From: Nevskia sp.
Lineage (GTDB): Bacteria; Pseudomonadota; Gammaproteobacteria; Nevskiales; Nevskiaceae
Direction of reading: 5' to 3'
Assembly (NCBI RefSeq): GCF_023266035.1
Contig: NZ_JAHFRY010000031.1
Location: 1-34,709 of the forward strand
Length of the DNA: 34,709 bases
Under the pieces are notes generated by a model that did no database searches, had not been told where the DNA came from, and worked only from the letters and a program-made list of their open reading frames with translations. Shown one piece after another: positions 6,887-28,999 of the stretch (its first letter is position 1; each line of letters begins with the position of its first letter). Position numbers and translations under genes: made by a program.

Positions 6887-6890
6887 GGAA

Positions 6891-9857: not shown

Positions 9858-9872
9858 CGTTCTCCTCGAAAA

Positions 9873-10862: not shown

Positions 10863-10893
10863 TGCCTTGCTCCGATAGAACCGCTGCCGGCCT

Positions 10894-12897: not shown

Positions 12898-12908
12898 TGG
12901 TGCACCCG

Positions 12909-14516
12909 TCAGAATCGGAACACGCCGAACTGGGTCTTCTGCGCCGGAACCCGCGCCGCCAGTTCCAGCAGCAGGGCCAGCGTGCCGCGCGTTTCCAGCG
13001 GCTCGATCACCCCGTCGATCCAGCCGTGCGCAGCGAAGTTGTGTGCGCCCTGGAGGTCTTCGTAAATTTTGCGCACGGGTGCCTTGAAGGCTTCGCGCTC
13101 CTCCTCGGTCCAGGTTTTCTTCTCGATCTTGAGATTGGTCTCGCGCACCAGCGACAGCACCATCGCTGCCTGTTCCGGCCCCATGATTCCGGAGCGGCCA
13201 TTGGGCCACGCGAACATGGCTGTGGGCTTGAACGCCCGCCCGCACATCGCCAGATACCCTGCGCCGTAGGAGGCGCCGATGTTGAGCGTGTACTTGGGCA
13301 CGCGCGCCGAGCTCATCGCGGTGATCATCTTGGCACCGTGCTTGGCGATGCCGGCCTGCTCGACATCCTGCCCGACCATGAAGCCGGTGACGTCGCTCAT
13401 GAACAGCAGTGGCACGTCGCGCTGGCAGCACAGGTTGATGAAGTGGGTGCCCTTCATCGCGCTGTCCGGGAACAGCACGCCATTGTTGGCGAGGATGCCG
13501 ATCTCGTAACCGTGGATGCGGGCGAAGCCGGTCAGCAGGGTCTCGCCGTACAGCGGCTTGAATTCCTGAAATTCACTGTCGTCCACCAGTCGCGCCAGGA
13601 TCTCGCGTGTGTCGGTCGGGTATTTCGGATCGCGCGAGATGATGCCGTAGATCTCCGCCGTATCGAAGCGCGGTGGCCGCGAGGGCTCCTGCTTGCGGCG
13701 CGACGGCGGCACCTGTCCCAGTTCGCGCACGATGTTGCGCGCGATCAGCAGGGCGTGGCGGTCGTCCTCTGCAATATGGTCGGTGACGCCGCTCTTGCTG
13801 CAATGCATGGCCGCGCCGCCGAGCGACTCGGCGTCGACGGTTTCGCCGGTGGCGGCGAAGGTGAGTTCGGGGCCGCCCAGGTACATGAAGCCCTGGCCGC
13901 GCACGATCACGACTTCGTCGCACAGCGCCGGGATGTACGCACCGCCGGCCGTGCAGGGGCCCATCACCACCGCGATCTGCGGAATGCCGTCGCCGGACAT
14001 GCCGACCTGGTTGTGGAAGATGGAGCCGAACTGGCCGTCGTCCGGAAAGATGTTGGCCTGATCGGGCAGGAAGGCGCCGCCGCTGTCCACCAGGGTGATG
14101 CAGGGCAGCCGGTGTTGCCAGGCAAAGGCTTGCGCACGGACGTGCTTCTTGCAGGTCAGCCCGAAGTAGGTTCCGCCTTTCACGGTGGCGTCGTTGGCGA
14201 TGATCATGCACGGGCGGCCGGAGACCAGACCGACGCCGGTGATGATGCCGGCACCGGGCGGAACGCCCTCGTAGCGGCCGTCGCCGGTGAGTTCGCCGAG
14301 CTCGAGGAACGGCGAGCCTGGGTCCATCAGCAGTTCGATTCGATGCCGCGGCAGCACCTTGTTGCGCGCCAGGTGTTTGGCGCGCATTTTTTCCGGGCCG
14401 CCGGCGCGCGCCTCGACGCGACGCGCGTGCAGGTTCGCGATGCGTTCGGCGTAGGCGGCCTGGTTGAGCGCGAAGGTCTCGCTGCGTGGCGAGACTCGGG
14501 ACGACAGGATGCCCAT
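12909..14516 (-). CDS. Carboxyltransferase (beta) subunit of an MCC/GCC-type acyl-CoA carboxylase
   Basis: The 535-aa carboxyltransferase moves CO2 from biotin to the gamma-methyl group of a 3-methyl-2-enoyl-CoA. Both crotonase-like halves are present: the N-terminal acyl-CoA site with LVDSGGAFLPDQ and CTAGGAYIPALCDE, and the C-terminal biotin site with GASYGAGYLAMCGRAF and FAWPNGRSGIMG. This arrangement and length match MCC and geranyl-CoA carboxylase rather than propionyl-CoA carboxylase. The ATG at 14516 has only a weak ribosome-binding site. It is second in the minus-strand operon, 72 bp after the first ACAD, and is followed at once by its alpha partner and the HMG-CoA-lyase-like gene, the same functional trio as in leucine and acyclic-terpene catabolism. 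Confidence 0.94.
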   Translation of the reverse strand: MGILSSRVSPRSETFALNQAAYAERIANLHARRVEARAGGPEKMRAKHLARNKVLPRHRIELLMDPGSPFLELGELTGDGRYEGVPPGAGIITGVGLVSGRPCMIIANDATVKGGTYFGLTCKKHVRAQAFAWQHRLPCITLVDSGGAFLPDQANIFPDDGQFGSIFHNQVGMSGDGIPQIAVVMGPCTAGGAYIPALCDEVVIVRGQGFMYLGGPELTFAATGETVDAESLGGAAMHCSKSGVTDHIAEDDRHALLIARNIVRELGQVPPSRRKQEPSRPPRFDTAEIYGIISRDPKYPTDTREILARLVDDSEFQEFKPLYGETLLTGFARIHGYEIGILANNGVLFPDSAMKGTHFINLCCQRDVPLLFMSDVTGFMVGQDVEQAGIAKHGAKMITAMSSARVPKYTLNIGASYGAGYLAMCGRAFKPTAMFAWPNGRSGIMGPEQAAMVLSLVRETNLKIEKKTWTEEEREAFKAPVRKIYEDLQGAHNFAAHGWIDGVIEPLETRGTLALLLELAARVPAQKTQFGVFRF

Positions 14517-14588
14517 GGATTCAACGCGCCTTGAATGGTGGATTGCGCAGCGGCTGGAACGCCGCGAGTTCCGCGCCGACGACCGCGC

Positions 14589-15755
14589 TCACTTCTTGCT
14601 GTCCCTGGCGTACTGCACCGCGACGCGGCCGACGCGCTCGCGGGCCACGATCAGCTTCATCACCTGGGCGGTGCCATCGCCGATCTCCAGGCCCATCACG
14701 TCGCGCAGGCGCTGCTGGTGCGGCAGGTCCATCGACCAGCCGTAGTGGCCGAAGGTCAGCAGGCACTGGTGAATCGCGTCGACAGAGGTCTTGGGTCCGA
14801 GCCACTTCACCATCGCGGCCTCGGCGGTGTGCGCCTCGCCCGCATCGCGCAGTTCCAGCGCGTGGTAGCAGAGCTGGCGGGTGGCGGCGATCAGCGTGTC
14901 GTATTCGGCCAGCGGAAAGCTTACGCCCTGGTACTGCGCCAGCGGCGCGCCGAAGGCGGTGCGTTCCGTGCTGTAGGCCCAGGCTTCATCGAGCGAGGCC
15001 TGCGCCGAGCCGATGCACTGCAGCGCGATCAGCACGCGGCTGTAATCGAAGCCCTGCATCACCTGCACGAAGCCCTTGTTCTCGTCGCCCAGCAGGTGGT
15101 CGGCAGGGATGCGCACGTCGTCGAAGAAGACCGAGCCGCGGCCGATGATCTTGCTGCCGGAGTCGTTGAAGTGCGTGCGCTGCACGCCGGGCAGCGTCAG
15201 CGGAACCAGGAAGGCGCTGATGCCGCGTGCGCCGTCCTCCACCGCGCCGGTGCGGGCGAACAGGACGATGGCGTCGGCCTGGTCGGCGAAGCTGATCGAG
15301 GTCTTCTCGCCATTGAGCACCCAGGAATCGCCGTCGCGGCGGGCCTTGAGGAGCAGGTTGGCGGCGTCCGAGCCGCCGCGCGGCTCGGTCAGACCCAGCG
15401 CGACGATGGATTCGCCGAGGATCATGCGCGGCAGCCAGTATTCGGCCAGCGCGGGTTTTGCATACCCCGCGATCACCTTGCCGGTCAGCGAGGCCATCAG
15501 CGGCACGTAGCTGACATTGATGTCGCCCCAGCCGATCTGTTCGATCAGGATGCCGGTGGTCAGGCCGCTGGCACCGAGACCTCCGTACTGCTCCGGCAGG
15601 TCGGGCGCGATAAGGCCTAGCTCGCCCATCTCGCGCACCAGGTCGCGATCCAGGCGCTCGGACTTTTCACGCTTCTGGTAGTCCGGCAGCAGTTTCTGTT
15701 CGGCGAAACGCCGGGCGGTGTCGCGTAGTGCGCGCTGGTCGTCGGTAAGAATCAT
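14589..15755 (-). CDS. Acyl-CoA dehydrogenase with Asp at the base position (cyclohexanecarboxyl-CoA DH-like)
   Basis: A 388-aa ACAD, first gene of the 14-kb operon. FAD/substrate motifs LTEPRGGSD (122-130) and the C-terminal EIGDGTAQVMKLIVARE are clear. At the position where medium-chain ACADs have the catalytic Glu (YEGTS) it has D360, and at the alternative isovaleryl-type position it has Ser239 rather than Glu. The GDGTAQ signature recalls cyclohexanecarboxyl-CoA dehydrogenases (AliB/BadJ) from memory. This suggests a bulky or cyclic acyl-CoA substrate, but that is inference. Translation starts at the ATG at 15755, about 72 bp downstream of operator site A and below a leader hairpin. Confidence 0.92.
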   Translation of the reverse strand: MILTDDQRALRDTARRFAEQKLLPDYQKREKSERLDRDLVREMGELGLIAPDLPEQYGGLGASGLTTGILIEQIGWGDINVSYVPLMASLTGKVIAGYAKPALAEYWLPRMILGESIVALGLTEPRGGSDAANLLLKARRDGDSWVLNGEKTSISFADQADAIVLFARTGAVEDGARGISAFLVPLTLPGVQRTHFNDSGSKIIGRGSVFFDDVRIPADHLLGDENKGFVQVMQGFDYSRVLIALQCIGSAQASLDEAWAYSTERTAFGAPLAQYQGVSFPLAEYDTLIAATRQLCYHALELRDAGEAHTAEAAMVKWLGPKTSVDAIHQCLLTFGHYGWSMDLPHQQRLRDVMGLEIGDGTAQVMKLIVARERVGRVAVQYARDSKK

Positions 15756-15808: not shown

Positions 15809-15826
15809 ACTGAGGGTTAAATATAA

Positions 15827-15847
15827 CAAACAGCCGTTAGAATTATA
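15827..15847 (-). promoter_or_regulatory. Promoter/operator site A of the 12-gene operon
   Basis: Read on the minus strand, a perfect TATAAT (15842-15847) is followed after one base by CTAACGGCTGTTTG (15840-15827). This 14-mer matches the perfect-arm operator at 18119-18132 at 11 of 14 positions. A repressor here would cover the transcription start. No good -35 is visible. The surrounding 15815-15856 is unusually A+T-rich for this DNA. Confidence 0.6.
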
Positions 15848-15953
15848 TCTAATATTTCCCTCGGGAGAGCCAGATGAGCGAGATGTGATGCGACGGCAGG
15901 GTGGCGATTCACCATAATGACGACACGCCTTTCGTGACAGACGCGCTGCAGCG

Positions 15954-15970
15954 GCCGCAGAGGCTGCGGC
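15954..15970 (-). terminator. Weak terminator-like hairpin after the EamA gene
   Basis: GCCGCAG and CTGCGGC form a 7-bp stem with a 3-base AGG loop just beyond the EamA stop codon on the minus strand. There is no following U-run, so Rho-independent termination is doubtful. Confidence 0.3.
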
Positions 15971-15973
15971 GGG

Positions 15974-16918
15974 CTACGGAACCAGAGGGGCGGGTCGAGA
16001 TGCCGGCTGCAGGGACGACAGCATCAGGATGCCGACGGTGACCAGGGCGGTGCCGGCGAGCTGGATGGCGGTGACCGGCTCGTGCAGCAGCCAGGCCGCG
16101 AGCAGCAGCGTGCTCGCGGGTCCGATCATGCCGGCCTGGGTGGCGTGTCCTGCGCCGATGGACCTTACCGCCATCATGGTCATGAAGATCGGCAGAGCCG
16201 TGCACAGCGTTCCGTTGGCCAGCGAAAGCCACCACACCGGCGCCGGCCATTCCAGCAGGCGTTCGATCGGGTGGATCAGCGGGTATTGCGCCACGCACAG
16301 GAATGTGGAGACGCACATCGCCAGCGCCACCAGACGCACCGCGCCCATGCCTTGCATCAGCCGCTCGCTGAGCAGCAGGTACACGGCGTAGAGCACGGCG
16401 CTGACGGCGATCAACGAGGCGCCCCAAGCCAGGTTGGGGCGTCCGAAGCTGCCCAGTTCGTGCCAGAACACGAGCACGATTCCGGCGTAGGCCAGCGCCA
16501 GCGACAACCATTGCCGGGGCTGTACCCGGCGCCGCAGGAACACGATGCCGAGCAGCAGCACGAAGCTGGGCGTGAGGAACAGGATCAGCCTTTCGAGTCC
16601 CGCACTGACATATTGCAGGCCGATCAGGTCGAGCATGCTCGACGCGTAGTAGCCTATGAATCCCAGCCCGGCGACGCGCAGCAGATCGACCGTCCGCAGG
16701 CGCGGGGCCTGCCGCCAGGTCCAGATCGCGACCGCCAGGAACAGCGGGCCCGCAGTGAGCATGCGCAGGGTGATGACGTCCACCGCGTCCAGCCCGTGCT
16801 GATAGAGCAGTTTGACGAAGACCACCTTGGCCGACAGCAGGACCGCGCCGCCAGCAGCCAGGGCCAGACCGCCGCGATGACCTAGGACCGGCTGTGCCGA
16901 AACGACAGCTGAGTGCAT
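15974..16918 (-). CDS. EamA/DMT-family transporter
   Basis: A 314-aa inner-membrane protein made of about ten hydrophobic segments arranged as two related five-helix EamA halves, the usual drug/metabolite transporter layout. Visible examples are LALAAGGAVLLSAKVVFVKLL in the first half and QAGMIGPASTLLLAAWLLHEP in the second. Such carriers export small metabolites, amino acids or toxic intermediates. It starts 52 bp after the alcohol dehydrogenase stop on the same strand, so the two are probably co-transcribed from the divergent promoter at 18.12 kb. Export or import of a pathway intermediate is plausible; the substrate is unknown. Confidence 0.88.
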   Translation of the reverse strand: MHSAVVSAQPVLGHRGGLALAAGGAVLLSAKVVFVKLLYQHGLDAVDVITLRMLTAGPLFLAVAIWTWRQAPRLRTVDLLRVAGLGFIGYYASSMLDLIGLQYVSAGLERLILFLTPSFVLLLGIVFLRRRVQPRQWLSLALAYAGIVLVFWHELGSFGRPNLAWGASLIAVSAVLYAVYLLLSERLMQGMGAVRLVALAMCVSTFLCVAQYPLIHPIERLLEWPAPVWWLSLANGTLCTALPIFMTMMAVRSIGAGHATQAGMIGPASTLLLAAWLLHEPVTAIQLAGTALVTVGILMLSSLQPASRPAPLVP

Positions 16919-16970
16919 GAACGCCCTGCGTGCGAATGCCCCTCGACCGGCAGGCAGATCGGAATGTGGA

Positions 16971-18068
16971 TTACCCGCGCCCAGGGACCAGGCAGGAGTG
17001 GATGGACTCGTCGCCGGGAATCTGGCGCGCGAGTGTCTTGATGGCGAGTTCGGCGTCCACCAGGTCGAAGTCGTGGGTGTGCATCTTCTCCACCGGCACG
17101 GTGCCGGATTCGATCAGGTCGATGGCGCTGCGATAGCCGCTGGAGGTCACGCCGATGGCGCCCTTGATGGTGATTTCTTTCATCACGATGTGATCGGACA
17201 CGAAGTCCGGAATAGGCTTGAAGCCCTTGACCCCGGCCAGCACTACGGTGCCTCCCGCCCGCACGAAGTACAGCGAGTCGAGCACCGGCCGCGTGGAATA
17301 CGAGGACACGTCCACCACCACTTCGGCGCCGACGCCGCCGGTGAGTTCGGCCACGCGCTTGCGCGCGTCCTCGTTCTCCACGTCGATGCAGTGATCGGCG
17401 CCAAACAGACGCGCGAGTTCCATCTTCTTCGCATCGGCCGCCAGCCCGGTGACGATGATCTTCTTGGCGCCCGCGCGGCGCGCCGCGATCACGCTGGACA
17501 GGCCGCGCTGCCCCGGCCCCATGATGACCACGGTATCGCCCGGCTTGGTACGCGGAATCTCGACCGCCCAGCGAAAGCCTGCGCCGAGCGGATTGAACAT
17601 CACCGCAATCTCGGGTTTCAGGGCCTTGCTCATCTTGTGCACGATGGCGTTCGGATGCAGGTACATGTACTCCGAGTACGCGCCCCACAGGCCCGGCGCA
17701 TCGCTGAGCGGGATGTAGGAATAGATGCGCCGGTCGCCGCACAGGTGATAGCGGCCCGACAGGCAGGTGTTGCAGCAGTGGCAGGCGATCATCGTCTCCA
17801 CGGCCACGCGATCACCTACGTCCACCTTCCAGCGTTTCGCGGCGCGGTCGCCGATCTTCTCGATGATGCCAAGCGGTTCGTGACCGGGTACCACGGGCAT
17901 GGGCATGCCCAGCACGTCTTCGAACTGTTCGTAGTCGCTGCCGCAGATGCCGCAGACCTCGACCCGCAGGATCGCCGAGTCCTCGTCGATGTCGGGCAGA
18001 GGAATGTCCATTTTCTCCAGCCGGCGTTTGGCGGTCAGCACCATGGCAAGACTGCTCTTGGGAAGCAT
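16971..18068 (-). CDS. Zinc-dependent alcohol dehydrogenase (MDR superfamily)
   Basis: A 365-aa medium-chain dehydrogenase. Catalytic zinc ligands C39 (CGICGSD) and H63-E64 (PGHEPLG) and the four structural-zinc cysteines C96, C99, C102 and C110 are all present. The Rossmann loop reads GPGQRG. It should oxidise an alcohol (or reduce an aldehyde/ketone) with NAD(P). The frame is open to 18113, but the ATG at 18068 follows a GAGGGG at ideal spacing and matches the normal N-terminus. It is transcribed divergently from the CMD gene, with operator B between them (about 50 bp upstream of its start). It could supply the aldehyde or acid for the pathway. Confidence 0.93.
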   Translation of the reverse strand: MLPKSSLAMVLTAKRRLEKMDIPLPDIDEDSAILRVEVCGICGSDYEQFEDVLGMPMPVVPGHEPLGIIEKIGDRAAKRWKVDVGDRVAVETMIACHCCNTCLSGRYHLCGDRRIYSYIPLSDAPGLWGAYSEYMYLHPNAIVHKMSKALKPEIAVMFNPLGAGFRWAVEIPRTKPGDTVVIMGPGQRGLSSVIAARRAGAKKIIVTGLAADAKKMELARLFGADHCIDVENEDARKRVAELTGGVGAEVVVDVSSYSTRPVLDSLYFVRAGGTVVLAGVKGFKPIPDFVSDHIVMKEITIKGAIGVTSSGYRSAIDLIESGTVPVEKMHTHDFDLVDAELAIKTLARQIPGDESIHSCLVPGRG

Positions 18069-18089
18069 GCCGATCCCCTCGTTCGGAAG

Positions 18090-18132
18090 TTGAATTCTGT
18101 CGCGAGCCAGCATACTGTCTAACAGTTGTTAG
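18090..18132. promoter_or_regulatory. Divergent promoter/operator site B
   Basis: CTAACAGTTGTTAG at 18119-18132 has perfect 6-bp inverted arms (CTAACA and TGTTAG) around GT, the best copy of the repeated operator. For the plus strand a -10-like CATACT (18111-18116) lies two bases before it, with a possible TTGAAT at 18090-18095 (spacing short). For the minus strand TATGCT (18114-18109) is a weak -10. The site sits between the divergent alcohol dehydrogenase and CMD genes, so one bound repressor could control both directions. Confidence 0.65.
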
Positions 18133-18216
18133 GGAAAGTGCGACGGTCCGCAACCCGCCAAATCTTTCCCGGATTTCGATGTTCCAACGCCAATAACGCC
18201 AATCAAGAGTGCCACC

Positions 18217-18825
18217 ATGACCGCAGCTCCCCCTGCGCGCGGCAGCGCGCTGCGTATTCCCATGATGAGTGTCGAGGAGGCCCGCGCCATCGCCGCGCGC
18301 GAAGGTCTCCCCGCGATCATGGCCCCGCTCAGCGTGTTCCGGGTGCTGCTGCACCACCCTGCCCTGGCGCGCTCGCTGGGTGGCTTGCTGAAGATGTTGC
18401 TGCTGGAGGGCAATCACCTGGATGGCCGTTTGCGCGAGCTGATCATCATGCGGATCGGCTGGCTCACCGGCTCCAACTACGAATGGACGCAGCACTGGCG
18501 CTTCGCCCGCGACATGGGCATTCCGGAGAACGTGCTGCTGGCCTGCCGGTCGTGGGAAAGCGCCACCGTTCTGAGCGCTGCGGATCGCGCGATCCTGCGC
18601 GCCACGGACGAAACCATGGACACCGGCCGGATATCGGAGTCCACCTGGGCAGAGTGCGAGCGTCACGTCACCAGCATCCAGGCGCGGCTGGAACTGGTGG
18701 TTGCCATCGGCAACTGGCGCACGTTTTCGCAACTGCTGCTGACGCTGGGGATCCCGCTCGAAGACGGTCTTGATAACTGGATGCCGGATGGCGTTCGCCC
18801 GGCGCGAGCGCCCGCCGACTTCTGA
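18217..18825 (+). CDS. Carboxymuconolactone decarboxylase (CMD/AhpD)-family protein
   Basis: A 202-aa helical protein of the CMD superfamily, recognised by RLRELIIMRIGWLTGSNYEW followed by TQHWRFARDMGI. The AhpD CxxC redox pair is absent: the equivalent stretch has Y88-E89 and H93 (YEWTQH), so a peroxidase-reductase role is unlikely. Proteins of this kind are common as first genes of catabolic operons and their reactions are mostly unknown; lactone, decarboxylase or dehalogenase-like chemistry is possible. It is the first plus-strand gene after operator B, about 85 bp downstream. Ribosome-binding site weak. Confidence 0.85.
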   Translation: MTAAPPARGSALRIPMMSVEEARAIAAREGLPAIMAPLSVFRVLLHHPALARSLGGLLKMLLLEGNHLDGRLRELIIMRIGWLTGSNYEWTQHWRFARDMGIPENVLLACRSWESATVLSAADRAILRATDETMDTGRISESTWAECERHVTSIQARLELVVAIGNWRTFSQLLLTLGIPLEDGLDNWMPDGVRPARAPADF

Positions 18826-18925
18826 GTCCGTCGTCCTCTGCTTTCACCTACTTCTGCGCGGCGACGTGCCGGCTGCGATGACCGACTGACAACCCTGAGA
18901 ACCCCATGAACCAAGGAGAAAACCG

Positions 18926-19687
18926 ATGAGATTCGGCAGCGTGAACTTCGAGAAGCGCGGCGCCGTGGCGCTGATCACCCTGGACGAGCCGGGCAAGCTC
19001 AACGCGCTGTCGGCCGGCATTCGCGAAGGCGTCACCGCGAGCCTGGCGCGCATCGAGACCGATCCCGAGATCCGCGTCGGCATCATCACCGGCAGCGGCG
19101 AGAAAGCCTTTTGCGCCGGTGCCGACATCAGCGGCTTCGACTTCGCCGCCAGCGCGGTCAAACAGTTCATCGAGGAGATCGTGACGTTTCTCGCCGCGCC
19201 GGAATCGTGCAGCAAGCCGCTGATCGCGGCGGTCAACGGCATGGCGTTCGGTGGCGGCTTCGAACTGGCCATCGCCTGCGACTTCATTCTTGCCTCGGAG
19301 CGCGCGAAGTTCGGCGTGCCGGAAATCCAGTTGGGCCTGCTGCCGGGCTTTGCGGTGGTGCGTCTGGCCGATATCGTCGGCCGGCCCAAGGCCAAGGAGA
19401 TGTCGATGCTTGGCGATCCGATCAGCGCCGAGGAAGCCGTGCGCCTCGGCATCGCGTTGCGCACGGTGGCTCCCGAACGTCTGCTCGAAGAAGCGATGGC
19501 GATGGCCGAAAGGATTGCCTCCAAGCCGGCCATGGCCGTGCGCATGGCCAAGTCCTTCTACAACCGTGGCCTGGGCGGCGACGATCTGCGCGCCGCGCGC
19601 GATGCATTCCCGTTCCTGTTCATGACGCCGGATGCGCGCGAGGGCGTTACCGCGTTCCGTGAGAAGCGCAAGCCAAACTTTTCCTGA
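18926..19687 (+). CDS. Enoyl-CoA hydratase (crotonase family)
   Basis: A 253-aa crotonase with both catalytic glutamates in place: E113 in GGGFELAIACD and E133 in FGVPEIQLGLLPG. The oxyanion-hole motif CAGADI is at about 63-68. It should add water to a 2-enoyl-CoA in the cytoplasm. An AAGGAG lies at good spacing before the ATG. It is second in the site-B operon, between the CMD gene and the citryl-CoA-lyase-like gene. It is one candidate for hydrating the product of the biotin carboxylase (the role of LiuC/AtuE), since it is the only canonical crotonase in the window. Confidence 0.93.
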   Translation: MRFGSVNFEKRGAVALITLDEPGKLNALSAGIREGVTASLARIETDPEIRVGIITGSGEKAFCAGADISGFDFAASAVKQFIEEIVTFLAAPESCSKPLIAAVNGMAFGGGFELAIACDFILASERAKFGVPEIQLGLLPGFAVVRLADIVGRPKAKEMSMLGDPISAEEAVRLGIALRTVAPERLLEEAMAMAERIASKPAMAVRMAKSFYNRGLGGDDLRAARDAFPFLFMTPDAREGVTAFREKRKPNFS

Positions 19688-19710
19688 AAACCCATCACTT
19701 CGGAGTTCCA

Positions 19711-20505
19711 ATGTCCAGCAAACGCAAGCCCATCCGCACCACGATGGGATTCTCCACGCCCGACCGCATCGTCGTCCGTGGCTTCGATCTGCCCGGTGAA
19801 CTGCTAGGCAAGATCAATCTTGGCGACATGGCTTTTCTGGAGATGATGGGACGCGTCCCGACGCCGCAGGAGTCCGTGCTGTTCAACGCGCTCGCCGTGA
19901 CCCTGGTCGAACACGGCCTGACGCCCAGCGCGCTCGCGGCGCGGCTTACCTATGCCGGGGCGCCGGAGTCGATTCAGGGAGCGGTCGCGGCCGGGCTCGG
20001 CGGCCTGGGCACGGTGTTCGTCGGGACCACGGAAGGGTCGGCCAAGCTGCTGCAGGCAGCGATTCCGGACCGCAGGAATCCCGGCGATCTGGATGCGATG
20101 GCGAAGAGCATCGTCGCCGACTGGCACGCGCGAAAAGCCATCATTCCGGGCATCGGACATCCGCTGCACAAGCCGATTGATCCGCGCACGCCGCGGCTGT
20201 TCGCGATTGCGCGCGAGAACGGCTTCGACGGCCCTTACATCGCGCTGATGGAGCGCGTCGCCGACGAGGCCGCGCGGGTCTACGGCAAGGTGCTGCCGAT
20301 CAATGCGACCGGTGCCATCGGTGCCTGCTGCTCGGAACTCGGGATCGCCTGGACGGCCTGCCGCGGGATCGGCGTGCTGGCCCGCGCGATCGGTCTGGTC
20401 GGTCACATCATGGAAGAAATGCACTCGCCCATTGCCAAGGAAATCTGGACCCGGGCCGAGGATGAAGCGCGCGAATACGCGCTTGGCACACCCACCGGCG
20501 GCTGA
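19711..20505 (+). CDS. Citrate-synthase-fold protein, citryl-CoA-lyase-like
   Basis: A 264-aa protein of the citrate synthase superfamily, much shorter than true citrate synthase (about 430 aa). The conserved PGIGHPLHKP gives H150, matching the citrate synthase histidine that binds oxaloacetate. By eye the other two catalytic residues are missing: the GPLHGGAN histidine falls in VGTTEGSA and the Asp of NVDFYSG falls in INATGAIG. Small citrate-synthase-like proteins are known to cleave citryl-CoA. Here a retro-aldol cleavage of a 3-hydroxy(-3-carboxy)acyl-CoA is inferred. It lies 23 bp after the crotonase and 43 bp before the thiolase. Confidence 0.8.
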   Translation: MSSKRKPIRTTMGFSTPDRIVVRGFDLPGELLGKINLGDMAFLEMMGRVPTPQESVLFNALAVTLVEHGLTPSALAARLTYAGAPESIQGAVAAGLGGLGTVFVGTTEGSAKLLQAAIPDRRNPGDLDAMAKSIVADWHARKAIIPGIGHPLHKPIDPRTPRLFAIARENGFDGPYIALMERVADEAARVYGKVLPINATGAIGACCSELGIAWTACRGIGVLARAIGLVGHIMEEMHSPIAKEIWTRAEDEAREYALGTPTGG

Positions 20506-20548
20506 TCGCGACAAGCCTTGCAACGGCCACACACAGGAACCCACCACC

Positions 20549-21754
20549 ATGCGGGACGCTTTTATCTGCGATGCGGTACGCACCCCTTTCGGCCGCTACG
20601 GCGGCATTCTTGCCAGCATTCGCGCGGACGATCTCGCCGCGTTGCCGATCCAGGCGCTCATGCGCCGCAATCCGGGGATCGATTGGTCTGCGCTCGATGA
20701 CGTGATCTACGGTTGCGTCAATGGCGCAGGCGAAGACAGCCGCAATGTCGCGCGGATGGCGCTGCTGCTCGCCGGGCTGCCGCAGGAAGTCCCCGGCGGC
20801 ACCATCAACCGGCTCTGCGGATCCAGCCTCGATGCGGTGGCGATTGCAGCGCGAGCGATCAAGGCCGGCGAGGGCGACCTGCTGATCGCCGGCGGCGTGG
20901 AGAGCATGACGCGCGCACCGTTCATCATGGCCAAGGCCGACGGCGCTTTTCCGCGCGCCGTGAAGATCGAGGACAGCACCATCGGCTGGCGCTTCATCAA
21001 TCCGTTGATGAAGGCGCGCTACGGCGTGGACAGCATGCCGGAGACAGCCGAGAACGTGGCCGAGCAGTTCAAGATCGAACGCGCCGCGCAGGATGCGTTC
21101 GCGCTGCGCAGTCAGCAGCGCTACGCCAGGGCGCTGGCAGAAGGCTTCTTTAAGGGTCAGATCGAGCCGGTGCTGCTGCCGCAGAAGAAAGGCGAGCCGC
21201 TGCGTCTGGACGCCGACGAGCCGCCGCGCCCGGACACCACGCTCGAAGGGCTGGCCAAGCTCAAGGGCATCGTGCGCCCGGACGGCTCGGTGACGGCAGG
21301 CAATGCCTCGCAGGTCAACGACGGTGCCTGCGCGATGTTGATCGCCTCGGCCGAGGGCGCCGAGCGTCACGGCCTCAAGCCGCGCGCGCGCGTGGTCGCG
21401 GCCACCAGCGTCGGCAACGCGCCGCGCATCATGGGATTTGCTCCGGCCCCGGCGGTGAAGAAACTGCTGGCGCGCACGGGCCTGAACATCGGCCAGATGG
21501 ACGTGATCGAACTCAACGAGGCCTTCGCCGCGCAGGGTCTCGCCGTGACCCGCGACCTGGGGCTGGCCGATGACGATGCGCGGGTCAATCCGAACGGCGG
21601 TGCGATTGCGCTGGGTCATCCGCTCGGTGCCTCCGGCGCGCGCCTAGTGATGACCGCCGTGGCACAACTGGAACTCAGCGGCGGACGATATGGCCTGTGC
21701 ACGATGTGCATTGGGGTCGGCCAGGGTATTGCGCTGATCGTCGAGCGCATCTGA
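20549..21754 (+). CDS. Acetyl-CoA acyltransferase (thiolase)
   Basis: A 401-aa degradative thiolase that splits a 3-oxoacyl-CoA with CoA. The nucleophile is C90 in NRLCGSSLDA; H357 is in GGAIALGHPLGASGAR and the second cysteine C387 is in CTMCIGVGQG. NEAFAAQ is also present. The sequence looks like the beta-ketoadipyl-CoA thiolase (PcaF/PaaJ) branch, whose substrates carry a distal carboxylate; this is recognition by eye. The ATG at 20549 begins MRDAFICDAVRTPFG, the usual thiolase N-terminus; upstream in-frame codons overlap the lyase gene. It is the only thiolase in the window. Confidence 0.95.
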   Translation: MRDAFICDAVRTPFGRYGGILASIRADDLAALPIQALMRRNPGIDWSALDDVIYGCVNGAGEDSRNVARMALLLAGLPQEVPGGTINRLCGSSLDAVAIAARAIKAGEGDLLIAGGVESMTRAPFIMAKADGAFPRAVKIEDSTIGWRFINPLMKARYGVDSMPETAENVAEQFKIERAAQDAFALRSQQRYARALAEGFFKGQIEPVLLPQKKGEPLRLDADEPPRPDTTLEGLAKLKGIVRPDGSVTAGNASQVNDGACAMLIASAEGAERHGLKPRARVVAATSVGNAPRIMGFAPAPAVKKLLARTGLNIGQMDVIELNEAFAAQGLAVTRDLGLADDDARVNPNGGAIALGHPLGASGARLVMTAVAQLELSGGRYGLCTMCIGVGQGIALIVERI

Positions 21755-21758
21755 GCCG

Positions 21759-23015
21759 ATGGAGACCGCCTCTGGAGTCGCGAGCACGCCGTCATCCGGG
21801 CACTTCGACCCGCGCGACGCGGAGGTGATCCAGAACCCGTTTCCGGCGCTGGCGCGGTTGCGTGAAAACGAGCCGCTGCACTTCAGCGAGGCGATGGCCG
21901 GCTGGGTCATCACGCGCTACGAGGACGTGCGCAATTCCATGCGCGATCCGCGCTACTCCGCCAACCGCCTGCGACCGTTCTTCGCACATATGGACCCGAC
22001 TCGGCGGGAGCGGCTGGCGGCGCTGGAGAAGAACCTTTCGCTATGGGCGGTATTCAACGATCCGCCCGATCACGGCCGCTTGCGCAATCTCATGAACAAG
22101 GCCTTCACCACTTCGGTGCTGGCGCACATGGAAGGGCCCATCGCGGAGATGGTGGAGTCGCTGGTGGATGAGCTCGCAGAGCAGGACGGCGAAGTCGATT
22201 TCATCCGCGCGTTCGCCTACCCGCTGCCGGCGATGGTGATCGCCGAAATTCTCGGCGTGCCGCGCGAAGACGTGGCGCACCTCAAGCGCTGGTCCGATGA
22301 ACTCGCATCCTTCGTGCTGACCTCGCGTCTGTCGCCGGATCGCTATGGCCGTGCCGACGCAGCGATCCGCGAGATGCATGACTATTTCGGGCAGATGGCG
22401 CAGCGGCTGCGCAAGCAGTCCGACGGCGGCATCATCTCTCGTATGGTGGTGGCGGAAGAAAAGGGCGATTTCCTGTCCGGTGACGAGCTCGTCGCTGCCT
22501 GCGTGCTGCTGCTGTTCGCGGGTCATGAGACCACCACGCAGTTGTTCGGCAACGGGCTCTACGCGCTGCTGCGCTGGCCGGAGCAGCTGCAAGGCCTGCG
22601 CGCCGGCCTGCATGACCGCAGGCAGGTCGAGAACGCCGTTGAGGAAATCCTGCGCTGGGATGGGCCGGGCCTTGCGGGCGTGCGCGTTCTCAACGAGGAC
22701 GTGGAACTGCACGGGCAGCGGATGCCGGCGGGCAGCCGCATCTTCCAGTTTGTGGCTGCGGCCAATCGCGATCCCGCCGTGTTCGATGATCCCGACCGCT
22801 TCGACATCTCGCGCGATCCGAATCCGCACCTGACCTTCGGCTACGGCATCCACTTCTGCCTCGGCGCCCCGCTGGCCCGCATGGAAGCGCGCATCGCCTG
22901 GCCGATCATCCTGAAACGGCTGCGCGACATCGAGCTGGTGGAGACGCCAAGGTTCAGCGACTCGATGATCGTGCGCGGGCTTGAGGGCTTGCGCGTGCGC
23001 TGCCGCAGAGCCTGA
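21759..23015 (+). CDS. Cytochrome P450 monooxygenase
   Basis: A 418-aa soluble bacterial class I P450. The heme-binding loop FGYGIHFCLG gives axial C367. The I-helix oxygen-activation motif AGHETT is at 254-259 and the K-helix ExxR is E296-R299. There is no membrane anchor. It starts 4 bp after the thiolase stop, so it is co-expressed with beta-oxidation enzymes. No ferredoxin or ferredoxin reductase gene is in the window, so electrons must come from elsewhere. It could hydroxylate a terminal or allylic carbon of the substrate; regiochemistry and substrate are not readable. Confidence 0.95.
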   Translation: METASGVASTPSSGHFDPRDAEVIQNPFPALARLRENEPLHFSEAMAGWVITRYEDVRNSMRDPRYSANRLRPFFAHMDPTRRERLAALEKNLSLWAVFNDPPDHGRLRNLMNKAFTTSVLAHMEGPIAEMVESLVDELAEQDGEVDFIRAFAYPLPAMVIAEILGVPREDVAHLKRWSDELASFVLTSRLSPDRYGRADAAIREMHDYFGQMAQRLRKQSDGGIISRMVVAEEKGDFLSGDELVAACVLLLFAGHETTTQLFGNGLYALLRWPEQLQGLRAGLHDRRQVENAVEEILRWDGPGLAGVRVLNEDVELHGQRMPAGSRIFQFVAAANRDPAVFDDPDRFDISRDPNPHLTFGYGIHFCLGAPLARMEARIAWPIILKRLRDIELVETPRFSDSMIVRGLEGLRVRCRRA

Positions 23016-23093
23016 TCGCTGCGGCGCCACGTCGATGCCGACGCTAGGTGCTGCTGGCCGATGCGGGTCGCAGGCGGCGCGCTCATCGTCGCG

Positions 23094-23139
23094 TTGCAGG
23101 CATCGACCCTGAGCGGATAGACTGTCGAACGCTTGTTAG
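23094..23139 (+). promoter_or_regulatory. Promoter/operator site C
   Basis: TTGCAG (23094-23099), an 18-bp spacer and TAGACT (23118-23123) form a plausible sigma-70 promoter. It is followed at 23126-23139 by CGAACGCTTGTTAG, which matches operator B at 11 of 14 positions. Including the preceding ACTGT, 16 of 19 bases are shared with 18114-18132. The layout (-10, two bases, operator) is the same as at site B. Confidence 0.62.
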
Positions 23140-23188
23140 ATGAATGGCGTGTTTGCCGTCTCCATCCACAACCCGAACCTTGACGTCC

Positions 23189-24355
23189 TTGAACTTCCAG
23201 CCCAACGAGCAACACGACAGCATCCGCGAGGCGGTGCGCACACTGTGCGCGCGTTTCGACGCGAATTACTGGCTGGACAAAGACAAGCACGGCGGCTTCC
23301 CGCACGACTTCCACCGCGTGATGGCCGATGCCGGCTGGCTCGGCATCTGCACGCCTGAAGCCTACGGCGGCTCGGGGCTGGGCATTACCGAGGCGAGCAT
23401 CCTGATGCAGACCATCGCCGAGTCCGGCGCGGGCCTGTCCGGTGCCTCGTCCATCCACATGAACATCTTCGGGTTGCAGCCGGTGGTGGTGTACGGCACC
23501 GAGGAGCAGAAACACCGTTACCTGCCACCGCTGGTGAAGGGTGAGCAGAAAGCCTGTTTCGGAGTGACCGAGCCCGATGCCGGCCTGGACACCACGCACC
23601 TCAAGACGCGCGCCGAGCGGGTCAAGGGCGGTTACGTGCTGCACGGGCGCAAGGTGTGGATTTCCACCGCGCAGGTCGCTGACCGGATCCTGATCCTCAC
23701 CCGCACCACGCCCATCGAGCAGTGCAGGAAGCCCACGCAGGGCATGACCCTGTTCTATGCGCCGCTGGATCGCCGTTATGTCGACATCCGCGAGATCGAC
23801 AAGATGGGCCGCCACTGCGTGGACTCCAACGAACTGGCCATCGACGGCCTGCCGGTGTCCGACGAGGACCGCGTGGGCGAGGAAGGTCGCGGCTTCGAAT
23901 ACATCCTGCATGGCCTCAACCCGGAGCGCGTGCTGATCGCCTCCGAGGCGGTGGGCCTGGGCCGCGCCGCGCTCAACCGCGCGGTGGACTACGCCAAGGA
24001 GCGCGTGGTGTTCGGGCGCCCCATCGGCCAGAACCAGGCGATCCAGCATCCGCTGGCGGAAAGCTGGATCGAACTCGAAGCCGCCGAGCTGATGACGCGC
24101 CGCGCTGGCTGGAAATACGACCAGGGTCTGCCTTGCGGGCCGGACGCCAATGCCGCCAAGTTCTACGCTGCGGAGGTAGGCTTTCGCGCCTGCACGCGCG
24201 CGATGGCGACGCACGGCGGCATGGGTTACGCCAAGGAGTATCACGTCGAACGCTACCTGCGCGAGATGATGATTCCGCGCATCGCACCGATCAGCCCGCA
24301 ACTGATCCTGTGCCACATCGCCGAGAAAGTGCTCGGCCTTCCCAAGAGCTACTGA
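23189..24355 (+). CDS. Acyl-CoA dehydrogenase
   Basis: A 388-aa ACAD from the TTG start. VTEPDAGLD lies at 126-134. The likely base is E246 in LNPERVLIASEAVG, the isovaleryl/long-chain position; the C-terminal position reads PRIAPISPQ and has no Glu. The start is a choice: TTG at 23189 begins MNFQPNEQHDSIREAV, the normal N-terminus, and its paralogue at 29994 also begins MNFE from TTG. An ATG at 23144 adds 15 unlikely residues and lies only 5 bases after the operator. It is the first gene of the site-C operon and ends in the same LGLPKSY-type tail as the ACAD at 29994-31157, showing a shared subfamily. Confidence 0.92.
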   Translation: MNFQPNEQHDSIREAVRTLCARFDANYWLDKDKHGGFPHDFHRVMADAGWLGICTPEAYGGSGLGITEASILMQTIAESGAGLSGASSIHMNIFGLQPVVVYGTEEQKHRYLPPLVKGEQKACFGVTEPDAGLDTTHLKTRAERVKGGYVLHGRKVWISTAQVADRILILTRTTPIEQCRKPTQGMTLFYAPLDRRYVDIREIDKMGRHCVDSNELAIDGLPVSDEDRVGEEGRGFEYILHGLNPERVLIASEAVGLGRAALNRAVDYAKERVVFGRPIGQNQAIQHPLAESWIELEAAELMTRRAGWKYDQGLPCGPDANAAKFYAAEVGFRACTRAMATHGGMGYAKEYHVERYLREMMIPRIAPISPQLILCHIAEKVLGLPKSY

Positions 24356-24369
24356 GGGCTACCAGACTG

Positions 24370-25533
24370 ATGACTGACAAACCCACTCCAGACGCCGCCG
24401 CCCTGGCCGAGCGCGACGACCAGGTTCGATTGCTGCGGGACAGCGTCATTGCGTTCGCGGCCGGCCGCCTGCCGCTGATGCGCGCGCGCAAGTTGCGCAA
24501 GGCGCAGCCGGAGTTCGATCCGGCGATGTTCGCGGAACTGGCGGGACAGGGCTGGGCCGGCCTGCTGCTGCCCGAGGAATTCGGTGGCTTCGGCCTGGGC
24601 TTCGCCGAAGCGCGCGTGGTCATCGAAGGGCTTTCGGCACAGCTCGCACCGGAGCCGCTGGTGCCGGTCGCCGTGCTCGCGGCCGGGGCGCTGCGGCGCT
24701 GCGCGAAGTCCGCGCGGCGCGATGAATTGCTCGGCGCCCTTGCCGAAGGAACGTCAGTGCCGGCGGTTGCCTGGCAGAACGTCGCGGGCAGCCTGGAACT
24801 GGAGCAGCCGCCGTTCACTGCGGTGCGCGCGGGCGAGGGCTGGACGCTCGAGGGCGAGGCGCGATTCGTGCGCCCGGGCAGCGGCGCGACCGTGTATCTG
24901 CTGCTCGCTTCAACGCCGGAAGGTGTCGCGCTGTTCGCGGTCGAACCGGGTAGCAGCGGACTCGAAATGAAAACCGAGGCGCAGGCCGACGGTACCTCAC
25001 TGGCACGCCTGCGCGCGACCCAGCTGCGGGTGAGCGCGGCTGCTGCGCTGACGTTGAAGCGCGAAGACCTGGCGGCCGCGCTCGATGAGGCCCTTGTGAT
25101 GAACGCGGTGGAACTGCTCGCGCTGATCGTGCGCATGCGCGCCATGACGCTCGACTACCTCAAGACACGCATGCAGTTCGGCAAGGCCATCGGCAGTTTC
25201 CAGTCCTTGCAGCACCGCTCGGCGGACATGCTGATCCAGGAAGAACTCACCCGTGCCGTGGTCGGCCAGGCCGTCGCCGCGCTCGATGACGACGTGCCGC
25301 AGCACACGCGTACTAGCATGGCCAGCCGCGCCAAGGCGCGTGCGGGCGAGGCCGCGATGTCCACCGCGCGCGAAGCGATCCAGTTGCACGGCGGCATTGC
25401 CGTGACCGACGAATACGACCTCAGTCTCTACGTCAACCGGGTGCTGTCGCTGGCACCCTGGCTGGGCAACGCCCAGGCGCATCGTCGGCGCTACGTGCGG
25501 CTGAATCCCCCCGTGGCCGCCAGCGAGGGCTGA
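24370..25533 (+). CDS. Acyl-CoA dehydrogenase-fold protein, probably a non-catalytic subunit
   Basis: A 387-aa protein with ACAD architecture: PEEFGGFGLGFAEA near residue 70, YLKTRMQFGKAIGSFQ and LHGGIAVTDEYDLSLY in the C-terminal half. The middle domain is diverged, with no TEPxAGSD motif. No Glu aligns clearly at either known catalytic position (the ERI segment is replaced by ALVMNAVEL, the YEGTS segment by APWLGNAQ). It starts 14 bp after one ACAD and ends 5 bp before another. Steroid-degrading actinobacteria use alpha2beta2 ACADs in which one subunit lacks the base; this gene and the next look like such a pair (inference). Confidence 0.85.
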   Translation: MTDKPTPDAAALAERDDQVRLLRDSVIAFAAGRLPLMRARKLRKAQPEFDPAMFAELAGQGWAGLLLPEEFGGFGLGFAEARVVIEGLSAQLAPEPLVPVAVLAAGALRRCAKSARRDELLGALAEGTSVPAVAWQNVAGSLELEQPPFTAVRAGEGWTLEGEARFVRPGSGATVYLLLASTPEGVALFAVEPGSSGLEMKTEAQADGTSLARLRATQLRVSAAAALTLKREDLAAALDEALVMNAVELLALIVRMRAMTLDYLKTRMQFGKAIGSFQSLQHRSADMLIQEELTRAVVGQAVAALDDDVPQHTRTSMASRAKARAGEAAMSTAREAIQLHGGIAVTDEYDLSLYVNRVLSLAPWLGNAQAHRRRYVRLNPPVAASEG

Positions 25534-25538
25534 ACACC

Positions 25539-26693
25539 ATGCAAAAGACCGACTGGAACACCCTGTCCGACGAGGACTTCCGCAGCCAGGTGCGAGCGTT
25601 CTTCCACGCGAACTACCCGGAACATCTGCGCTATCCCAAGACCCGCCTGCGCTGGGTGCAGGTGAAGGACTGGTACCTCACCCTGTCGAAGCAGGGTTGG
25701 CTGGCGCCGGCCTGGCCGCAGAAATACGGTGGCATGGGACTCACGCCGCCCAAGCTCCTCATCTTCATGGAAGAGCTGGAGTTGCACGGCATCGGCCGTG
25801 CGCCGGACATGGGCATCGTCATGGTCGGGCCGCTGCTGATCCAGCACGGCACTGAGGAACAGAAGGCCTACTACCTGCCGAAGATCCTTTCCGGCGAGCA
25901 CGTGTGGTGCCAGGGCGATTCCGAACCCAATGCCGGCTCCGACCTGGCCAGCCTGCGTACCGAGGCGGTGCTCGATGGCGACCACTTCATCGTCAACGGA
26001 CAGAAAACCTGGACCTCGCTGGCCCAGGACGCCACCCACATCTTCATGCTGGTGCGCACCGACAAGAAGGCCAAGAAGCAGGAAGGCATCAGCTTCCTGC
26101 TGGCGGAAACCAGCACGCCGGGCGTCGAATTGCGGCCGATCCGCAACCTCGCCGGCCACGAGGAATTCTGCGAGACCTTCCTGCGCGACGTGCGCGTGCC
26201 CGCAGCCAACATCGTCGGAGAATTGAATCGCTGCTGGACCATTGCCAAGGCGCTGCTGAGCTTCGAGCGCATCGGCATCGGCGGCCCCAAGCAGAGCCAG
26301 TACGCGATGGCGCGCCTGGAAGAACTGGCACTGCAACTGGGTCTGACCGAAGACCAGGGCTTCATGGATACCTACGCGCGCTACAAGCTCGACGTCCTGG
26401 ATCACGCGGCGCTGTACGAGCGCTTCGTCGACCAGGTGCGGCGCGGCGAGACGCTGGGCTCTGATGTCTCCATGCTCAAGATCGTCGGCACCGAGAACTA
26501 CCAGAAGATTTCGCAGTTGCTGGTAGAGACCGCCGGCAGCGCCGGCGGTCTGGTGGGCGACGTGGACATCGGCGGCGAGTCCTTCGACTGGCTGACCAGC
26601 TACTACAACGCGCGGCCCGCCACGATCTACGGCGGCTCCAACGAGATCCAGCGAAACATCCTGTCCTCGCAGGTGCTGGGCCTGCCGTCCTGA
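25539..26693 (+). CDS. Acyl-CoA dehydrogenase, probable catalytic subunit of a pair
   Basis: This 384-aa ACAD begins MQKTDWNTLSDEDFR and contains QKYGGMGLTPPK, DSEPNAGSDLASL (about 127-139) and QKTWTSLAQDA. E243 in SFERIGIGGPK is at the isovaleryl-type base position, while the classical position is Gly in ATIYGGSNEIQ. This kind resembles actinobacterial FadE26/FadE28-type subunits that pair with a partner lacking the base. It lies only 5 bp downstream of the diverged ACAD-fold gene, supporting a heteromeric enzyme, and 29 bp before the SDR. Confidence 0.92.
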   Translation: MQKTDWNTLSDEDFRSQVRAFFHANYPEHLRYPKTRLRWVQVKDWYLTLSKQGWLAPAWPQKYGGMGLTPPKLLIFMEELELHGIGRAPDMGIVMVGPLLIQHGTEEQKAYYLPKILSGEHVWCQGDSEPNAGSDLASLRTEAVLDGDHFIVNGQKTWTSLAQDATHIFMLVRTDKKAKKQEGISFLLAETSTPGVELRPIRNLAGHEEFCETFLRDVRVPAANIVGELNRCWTIAKALLSFERIGIGGPKQSQYAMARLEELALQLGLTEDQGFMDTYARYKLDVLDHAALYERFVDQVRRGETLGSDVSMLKIVGTENYQKISQLLVETAGSAGGLVGDVDIGGESFDWLTSYYNARPATIYGGSNEIQRNILSSQVLGLPS

Positions 26694-26722
26694 GTGCAAT
26701 ACGAATACGAGAGAGACACGCG

Positions 26723-27637
26723 ATGAACAAGATGATGGAAGGCAAGGTGGTGGTGGTCACCGGCAGCGGCCGCGGCATCGGTCGCGACATGGCCCTGCAG
26801 ATGGCCGCCGAAGGTGCGGCCGTGGTGGTCAACGACCTCGGCGTGTCGGTGGACGGCAGCGAATCCGGAGAAACGCCGGCCGCCGAAGTGGTGCGCGAGA
26901 TCGAGAGTCGTGGCGGCCGCGCGGTGGCCAACTACGAGAGCGTGTCGGATTGGGTGGCGGCGGGTCGCATCGTGCAGTGCGCGATGGATACCTTCGGCCG
27001 CATCGACGTGGTGGTGAACAACGCCGGCATCCTGCGCGATCGTTTCTTCTTCAACATGAGCGTGGATGAGTGGCGCGCCGTCATCGACGTGCATCTGCAC
27101 GGCAGCTTCTTTGTGTCGCGCGCCGCCGCACCGTATTTCAAGTCGCAGAGTTCAGGTGCCTATGTGCACATGACCTCGACCTCCGGCCTCATCGGCAACA
27201 TGGGCCAGGCCAACTACGCGGCAGCCAAGCTGGGTGTCGCAGCACTGTCCAAATCCATTGCACTGGACATGCGGCGCTACAACGTGCGCTCCAACTGCAT
27301 CTCGCCGTTTGCCTGGAGCCGCATGATCGGCGCGATTCCCACCGATACGCCGGCACAGCAGGCGCGCGTGGAGAAGCTCAAGAAGATGGAGTCGGGAAAG
27401 ATCGCACCGATGGCCGTGTTCCTCGCCAGCGACGCCGCCAAGGACGTGTCCGGCCAGATCTTCGCCGTGAGGGCCAACGAGATTTTCCTGATGAGCCAGC
27501 CGCGCCCCATCCGCAGCGTGCACCGCAGCGAGGGCTGGACCCCGCAGACCATTGCCGAACAGGCGTTGCCGGCGTTCAAGTCCAGTTTCTTTCCGCTGGA
27601 AATCTCTGGTGAAGTGTTCTCCTGGGACCCGATCTGA
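26723..27637 (+). CDS. SDR, (3R)-hydroxyacyl-CoA dehydrogenase (MFE-2/HSD17B4-type)
   Basis: A 304-aa SDR with TGSGRGIG (13-20), NNAG (99-102) and catalytic S152, Y165 and K169 (NYAAAK). The N-terminal region VVVNDLGVSVDG and the extended C-terminal tail match the dehydrogenase unit of peroxisomal multifunctional enzyme type 2, which oxidises (3R)-hydroxyacyl-CoAs. It ends 3 bp before a MaoC gene that supplies the matching hydratase-2 unit, so together they form a split MFE-2. A GAGAGA ribosome-binding site precedes the ATG. MFE-2 in animals handles branched-chain and bile-acid CoAs; a branched substrate here is inference. Confidence 0.9.
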   Translation: MNKMMEGKVVVVTGSGRGIGRDMALQMAAEGAAVVVNDLGVSVDGSESGETPAAEVVREIESRGGRAVANYESVSDWVAAGRIVQCAMDTFGRIDVVVNNAGILRDRFFFNMSVDEWRAVIDVHLHGSFFVSRAAAPYFKSQSSGAYVHMTSTSGLIGNMGQANYAAAKLGVAALSKSIALDMRRYNVRSNCISPFAWSRMIGAIPTDTPAQQARVEKLKKMESGKIAPMAVFLASDAAKDVSGQIFAVRANEIFLMSQPRPIRSVHRSEGWTPQTIAEQALPAFKSSFFPLEISGEVFSWDPI

Positions 27638-27640
27638 GTC

Positions 27641-28498: not shown

Positions 28499-28525
28499 TT
28501 TCCTTACCGACCCGAAGGTTTTTCC

Positions 28526-28957
28526 ATGTCTGAAAATTCCACACTGGCACCGCAGATCGCGGCGCTGATCGAGATGTTCCCCGGCATTGGCTTCCAGAAA
28601 GTGCTGGGCATCGAGGTGGTGGAGACCGCGATCGACCGCGCCGTCGTGCGCCTGCCGCACCGCATGGAACTCTGTGGCGGCGGCAACGCACTGCATGGCG
28701 GCGTGATCTCAAGCCTGCTCGATCTGACTGGCGCGCTTGCCGCCTGGTCGGGTCATGACATCGCACGCGGCATGAAGGCTTCCACCGTGACCCTCACGGT
28801 GAACTTCGTCGGTGCCGCGATGGGCGCCGCCATCGTTGCCACCGGCGCGGTGCGTCGTCGCGGCAAGGAACTGATCTTCTGCGACGTCGAGATCGTCGAA
28901 GACACCGAGGCGCGTCGCCTGGTCGCCACCGGCTCGATGATCTACCGCATCGTCTGA
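28526..28957 (+). CDS. PaaI-type hot-dog thioesterase
   Basis: A 143-aa single hot-dog domain with the motif ALHGGVISSLLDLTGALAAW, giving H57 and D66. It is the third hot-dog thioesterase of the window and has the usual PaaI family length. It sits between MaoC and the atypical crotonase in the site-C operon. Its likely role is to recover CoA from stalled intermediates or release a product acid. Confidence 0.87.
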   Translation: MSENSTLAPQIAALIEMFPGIGFQKVLGIEVVETAIDRAVVRLPHRMELCGGGNALHGGVISSLLDLTGALAAWSGHDIARGMKASTVTLTVNFVGAAMGAAIVATGAVRRRGKELIFCDVEIVEDTEARRLVATGSMIYRIV

Positions 28958-28999
28958 ATTCACCCACCCCAACGACTCATCCTTCATACCGAGATCGCC

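Follow-up and report, generated by a model that had tools for sequence, protein, structure and literature searches.

Palindromes of the form CTAAC-N4-GTTAG mark a regulon in Nevskia sp. that is real and is larger than first proposed. Most likely they are the operators of a TetR-family repressor, encoded on contig C180 of the source genome, that would control one cluster of ~115 kb and be released by acyl-CoA. What the computational analysis presented here shows directly is that the sites exist, that they are conserved and that their motif is linked to a TetR family. The window, the whole stretch of 34,709 nucleotides that was analysed, is contig C151 of the source assembly (G000; 4.50 Mb, 243 contigs, 96.8% complete).

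The original prediction had described three 14-bp palindromes in the window, and all three are present where it placed them (Table 1). Operator A reads CAAACAGCCGTTAG on the forward and CTAACGGCTGTTTG on the minus strand, operator B (CTAACAGTTGTTAG) is a perfect palindrome with 6-bp arms CTAACA/TGTTAG, and operator C reads CGAACGCTTGTTAG; the claimed identity of the 15827 and 23126 copies to the 18119 copy, 11 of 14 positions each, was reproduced. Scanning the window for CTAACN4GTTAG with up to one mismatch returned exactly these three matches. With up to two mismatches there were 4 matches against 2.36 expected, a number reached by 18 of 100 shuffled sequences; within the window, the loose pattern therefore lacks significance by itself. 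A two-mismatch site at 15786 was dropped because the aligned region of a related genome, G016, holds no matching site. When the window was scored with a matrix built from sites of other bacterial groups, the three operators took the first three ranks (scores 23.8, 18.1 and 17.6; next 11.0), and none of 60 first-order Markov windows held three matches scoring as high; as the training sites had been chosen with the same CTAACN4GTTAG pattern, the arms are no independent evidence in this test. That the palindromes arose by chance would agree with the non-significant two-mismatch scan of the window alone, but is contradicted by the matrix ranks and by the genome scan, spacer controls, co-occurrence, homolog loci and promoter footprints described below, which leaves it a negligible probability.

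Table 1 Operators, transcription units and genome-wide sites (window positions for the first eight rows; contig:position in the source genome for the others)
Feature	Location	Strand	Description	Basis
Operator A	15827..15840	-	promoter of 13-gene minus operon	pattern scans; conserved in G016
TATATT hexamer	15820..15825	-	-10-like, downstream of operator A (offset 15); candidate alternative to TATAAT	kept in G016
Minus operon	1770..15755	-	13 genes under operator A	co-directional, small gaps
ADH/EamA unit	15974..18113	-	zinc alcohol dehydrogenase and EamA transporter, under operator B	domain checks
Operator B	18119..18132	.	between divergent ADH and CMD genes	pattern scans; 33-bp block identical in G016
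CMD operon	18217..23015	+	CMD, enoyl-CoA hydratase, citrate-synthase-like, thiolase, P450, under operator B	domain checks
Operator C	23126..23139	+	promoter of ACAD-to-CoA-transferase operon	scans; identical 14-mer in G016 and G061
ACAD-rich operon	23144..33669	+	under operator C, through MaoC, hydratase, CoA-transferase and DUF445	domain checks
Site	C108:5675		thioesterase / acyl-CoA ligase	<=1 mismatch
Site	C108:10989		ACAD / BadI- or MenB-like, below those models' cut-offs	<=1 mismatch
Two sites, one region	C113:7510 and 7712		MMPL-DUF1329 / aldehyde dehydrogenase	<=1 mismatch
Three sites	C151		operators A, B and C	<=1 mismatch
Site	C180:2837		ETF; core broken (CTAGC)	<=1 mismatch
Site	C243:9439		KASIII-ChsH2-like	<=1 mismatch
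Site	C243:15672		DUF445 (by eye) / MaoC-ACAD	<=1 mismatch

The transcription units under the three operators are rich in acyl-CoA genes. By the ORF list, in which several genes were named by eye, the minus operon comprises 13 co-directional genes instead of the 12 first counted: acyl-CoA dehydrogenase, carboxyltransferase, biotin carboxylase, HMG-CoA-lyase-like, SDR, ACAD, hydrolase/thioesterases, SDR, transglutaminase-like, acyl-CoA ligase and alpha/beta hydrolase (by eye for the carboxyltransferase, the SDRs, ACAD 7928 and the thioesterases). In the operon under operator C, the CoA-transferase, the SDR and the later ACADs were likewise named by eye. The P450 gene that ends the CMD operon (21759-23015) is without counterpart at the equivalent place in the otherwise matching G016 operon and was therefore gained or lost recently. 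An IS30-like transposase, identified by eye, occupies positions 7-1167 of the window, at the contig end, and may be the reason why the assembly breaks off at this point.

Extending the scan to the whole source genome, as the original prediction had proposed, located CTAACN4GTTAG with up to one mismatch at 12 places, 10 of them before acyl-CoA or lipid genes; the genes beside the sites were called with a simple script, and some were checked with Pfam and NCBIfam. The ten sites occupy nine intergenic regions, and eight of the promoters are kept in G016, so that the regulon exceeds the four units originally envisaged. The core is broken in the two other sites, C50:3997 (before an antitoxin-like gene) and C220:5905 (at the end of a gene), which were attributed to chance. 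The ETF site at C180:2837 was retained despite its broken core on account of its place, and the two-mismatch sites on C113 at 30810 and 39463 were left out of the count. As a control for the spacing of the arms, at up to one mismatch, CTAAC and GTTAG separated by 6 bp gave 4 sites in this genome against 12 with 4 bp, and exact arms with spacers of 0-12 occurred three times at spacer 4, once at 8 (containing the C243:9439 site) and once at 10. The looser pattern CNAACN4GTTNG proved useless as a detector, with 54 sites in the source genome against 55 for the reversed control. Within the spacer, 121 distinct sites of other groups, read on both strands, begin with a purine in 82%, which equals ending with a pyrimidine; by a count made by eye, the purine at the start and the pyrimidine at the end are both present in 9 of the 10 lipid-gene sites of the source genome, but not in the two odd sites.

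In Nevskia sp. MAG D1_Bin_22 (G016), the counterparts of genes on C243, C113, C180, C108 and C151 lie together on one unbroken contig (C1, ~56-172 kb), in a cluster of ~115 kb that includes some stretches without counterpart in the source genome. Eight of the 12 sites with up to one mismatch in G016 (C1 58156, 61097, 113825, 120239, 136491, 140382, 150567 and 159998) are inside this cluster, at promoters that bear sites in the source genome, and the remaining four were counted as chance, their core being broken; at the places in G016 that match C180:2837 and C113:7712, no site was found. Alignment of the three window promoters with G016 revealed each operator as a conserved block amid diverged flanks, with TTCTAACGGYTGTTTGTTATATTWAAC at operator A, 33 identical bases around operator B and TCGAACGCTTGTTAGA at operator C, where the 14-mer is identical to that of the window. 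Both the B and the C 14-mers are also present in the Polycyclovorans MAG G061, B between ADH and CMD. Over the cluster regions of six genomes, 3 of 32 sites fall inside called ORFs, one of which has just 80 codons, and sizeable ORFs hold two (G020 C2:146290 and G034 C4:146426); G020, G029, G034 and G032 entered as partial sequences only, and the G020 C3/C4 sites and stretches L113 and L114 were left out. The cluster encodes acyl-CoA ligases, ACADs, hydratases, thiolase-type enzymes with ChsH2-like domains, biotin carboxylases, an AtuA-family protein, MMPL/DUF1329 and ETF. A guess from this gene content is that the substrate may be a methyl-branched isoprenoid or sterol-type side chain.

The regulator missing from the window is probably the TetR-family protein encoded on C180. 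A TetR-type regulator encoded outside the window had been anticipated, and the motif leads to such a gene at C180 2933-3601 on the minus strand, adjoining the ETF site, with its G016 counterpart in the middle of the cluster. The protein carries the domains PF00440 (3.4e-18) and PF17932 (1.5e-18), and the AF2 model of the G016 ortholog shows a TetR fold of nine helices (mean pLDDT 86.8) whose nearest solved structures include PfmR, KstR2, AibR with isovaleryl-CoA and FadR, and also PfiT and DarR. The structure titles of DarR name cyclic dinucleotides or cAMP, so not every neighbour binds acyl-CoA.

Exact sites and this TetR occur in the same genomes. Among 61 genomes, at least three exact sites were found only in G000 (3), G016 (3), G020 (8), G029 (3) and G034 (3), the same five whose best TetR match has E <= 4.1e-82; the other 56 contain 15 exact sites in all, at most two each, and none reaches three. 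The source genome gave rise to the hypothesis and is no independent case in this comparison. In G032, whose TetR match is 43%, the single exact site lies ~1.2 kb from the matching gene. A second sample comprised 80 Hydrogenophaga-family genomes; here, at least three exact sites were present only in G067 and G126, the sole holders of a close ortholog, and in none of the other 78; G067 is the chosen centre of the sample, G126 is the independent case and has an exact site 165 bp from its tetR match, and G124, with a 41% TetR homolog, has no exact site. Since the TetR travels with the cluster, co-occurrence is unable to separate the one from the other. Genome-wide, ten TetR-holding genomes have 36 exact sites against 45 for the reversed pattern, a lenient control given that the 78 genomes without a close ortholog hold 9 exact sites in all. 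As a separate observation, six genomes (G017, G041, G051, G053, G057 and G058) each contain one exact site CTAACGACCGTTAG; in G053 and G058, another TetR gene, itself a weak match, is found ~90-100 bp away from it.

A link to the TetR gene itself emerged from homolog loci, for which genome contigs were searched with a TetR alignment and the best 80 of 229 loci were taken (gamma-, beta- and alphaproteobacteria; 1.457 Mb). These best 80 of 229 loci contain 88 exact sites and 170 with up to one mismatch, whereas spacers of 3, 5 and 6 gave no exact site and 3, 4 and 0 sites with one mismatch, swapped arms gave 0 exact and 8 with one mismatch, and the reversed pattern 2 and 29. Of the 170 sites in the best 80 of 229 loci, 164 are intergenic or fall within the first fifth of a called ORF. 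At 37 of these best 80 of 229 loci, the 350 bp upstream of the TetR match contain a site with up to one mismatch. The corresponding figures are 4.3% for 20,000 stretches drawn at random from these loci and 1 in 24 for weaker TetR matches, which were checked on both sides; L115 and L116, whose TetR is 75-76% identical, have no site with up to one mismatch within 10 kb. Loci L119-L194 (76 in all) yielded 227 cases of a first gene beside a site: 29 of these genes are homologs (62-73% identity) of ACAD 14589, the first gene under operator A, and 50 lack a match in the cluster contigs. Together with the genome scan, this link between TetR and motif supports the shared operator and the joint control of several units that the original prediction had set out. 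Two distant TetR matches in G034 (28-29% identity) also have motif sites with 0-1 mismatch directly upstream (C1:192110, 613369 and 613423), and the operator type may thus be common to a wider TetR group.

The original prediction had also proposed a search for a regulator gene with the same site upstream. Here the gene was found, and what precedes it is a two-mismatch variant: upstream of tetR in the source genome and four close relatives there is no site with up to one mismatch, and the divergent tetR/SDR region of these five holds a conserved overlapping variant, CTAYC(A/G)AATG(A/G)TAGTTAG, two mismatches away, which resembles C243:9435-9452 (CTAACAAACGAATGTTAG) and is a putative self-regulatory site. 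At G016 C1:61097 and 113825 and at G000 C243:9435, a third half-site recurs at a distance of 4 bp (CTAAC-N8-GTTAG is one example), which suggests overlapping dimer positions.

The source genome encodes a recent paralog of this TetR, 66-67% identical (C113:20604-21251, locus L015), and it is conceivable, though unlikely, that the sites are read by this second protein or are common to both. A single clade with support 0.999 unites both paralogs with proteins of Nevskia, Polycyclovorans, Solimonas and Algiphilus, their helix-turn-helix regions are nearly identical, and the TetRs that stand as first genes beside sites in other groups match the C113 protein best in 19 cases and the C180 protein in 16. 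Against a role of the C113 protein, no site with up to two mismatches lies beside its gene, a different palindrome, CTATCAAACGCTTGATAG (C113:30806-30823, locus L220), precedes the neighbouring carboxylase operon, and G016 has the regulon yet one close TetR, which groups with C180, if with a support of just 0.435. CTATCAAACGCTTGATAG is the only exact CTATCAN6TGATAG in the source assembly and is possibly the C113 paralog's own operator; by eye, the neighbourhood of this paralog is a carboxylase plus acetoacetyl-CoA-synthetase-like gene set. The C180 protein remains our preferred regulator.

The position of the sites relative to core promoters was only partly as predicted. Each site was thought to follow directly upon a -10-like hexamer, and the hexamers TATAAT, CATACT and TAGACT are indeed next to operators A, B and C, but placement directly after the -10 was not established as a rule. 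A consensus sigma-70 scan returned no promoter pair that uses any of the three; the sole consensus promoter near the sites is that of the ADH gene, with a -35-like TAGACA overlapping the end of operator B. The TATAAT at operator A (15842-15847, minus strand) is missing from the aligned G016 promoter; the predicted arrangement agrees with operator C, whose TAGACT reads TAAACT in G016, and perhaps with B. Among 83 sites flanked by a gene on just one side, a TATAAT-like hexamer starts 0-7 bases after the site in 40 (permutation median 21, rank 1) and ends 0-3 bases before it in 13 (permutation median 8, rank 6), as judged from 20 A/T permutations with unequal search widths of 8 offsets after and 4 before. 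When all 246 directed sites are taken, the excess is modest on both sides, with TATAAT at rank 3 of 20 both before and after the site.

Because the excess at one-sided sites is strongest just downstream of the operator, the regulator might activate instead of repress, a reading that we regard as quite improbable: an operator with the -10 just downstream lies within the footprint of RNA polymerase. It also counts against activation that most TetR proteins of this type act as repressors. The TetR fold neighbours, taken with operators on core promoters, point to acyl-CoA-released repression. In the mechanism that we propose, a TetR dimer would bind C[T/A/G]AAC-R-NN-Y-GTT[A/C/T]G at the promoters of about nine intergenic regions and block RNA polymerase, and acyl-CoA made from the substrate would release it. 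The TetR probably also controls its own gene, and in the source genome may do so through the variant site.

Several known systems resemble this one. PsrA of Pseudomonas and other bacteria is linked to fatty-acid metabolism and has, over a promoter, a palindrome whose core is AAC-N4-GTT, its sites being given as C/GAAACN2-4GTTTG/C in excerpts of PMC13104628, and the common core could suggest that PsrA reads the sites described here. This is very improbable. Position 2 is T in 77% and A in 10% of the 121 distinct sites (picked by the CTAAC pattern), with position 13 mirrored, unlike PsrA; the sites co-occur with a TetR other than PsrA; and this TetR scores 43 bits against the cut-off of 300 of the Vibrio PsrA model, which none of the 61 genomes passes, nor any of 14 control genomes, which leaves this comparison with no positive control. 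PsrA was set aside by model and site, and AtuR by operator: AtuR/RdmA (acyclic terpene utilisation), of the TetR type like the protein proposed here, represses a cluster that includes an AtuA gene (excerpts of PMC9973270), and an AtuA-family protein is encoded here, but the 13-bp operator reported in those excerpts (AGCAAGCGCTTGG/CCAAGCGCTTGCT; PMC9973270) is unrelated to CTAACN4GTTAG.

Similar in description, the level at which they were compared, are LiuQ (branched-chain amino acids) and FadP (fatty acids), which are predicted in RegPrecise. Excerpts of PMC5343134 describe both as predicted TetR-family regulators of betaproteobacteria with acyl-CoA catabolic targets, and FadP as occurring in Comamonadaceae (as a group), Burkholderia and Ralstonia. 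The similar class, taxa and target types (excerpts of PMC5343134) would suit an identity of our regulator with one of them, as would the carboxyltransferases and (by eye) acetoacetyl-CoA-synthetase-like genes beside sites in other groups. We consider such an identity somewhat unlikely; FadP, as far as these excerpts go, is Comamonadaceae-wide and thus looks more widespread than our TetR (PMC5343134), a close ortholog of which was found in 2 of 80 Hydrogenophaga-family genomes, the centre of the sample included. A LiuQ or FadP match, if true, would make the regulator already predicted.

KstR2, AibR, PfmR and FadR appear to share the modelled fold at 19-26% sequence identity in the listed alignments, and the PDB titles of AibR and Bacillus subtilis FadR name acyl-CoA ligands. 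Among the open-licence papers listed on PsrA/TetR, FadP/LiuR/LiuQ, AtuR, isoprenoid and steroid/sterol side-chain systems, we noticed no description of the regulon. With confidence a little short of even, we suggest that this is an undescribed TetR regulon, with the operator CTAAC-RNNY-GTTAG and a range from gamma- to alphaproteobacteria, in which a single repressor may switch a ~115 kb branched isoprenoid/sterol-like side-chain cluster in Nevskia-type bacteria, and in which the self-regulatory site would be unusual in that its half-sites overlap, at a distance of 4 bp. The findings link one regulator and its operator to a catabolic cluster of very large size; knowing the effector would reveal the substrate of this cluster, and the motif can be used to find remaining pathway genes in fragmented genomes. 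Set beside these known systems, the regulon is well supported, ordinary in mechanism and notable in extent.
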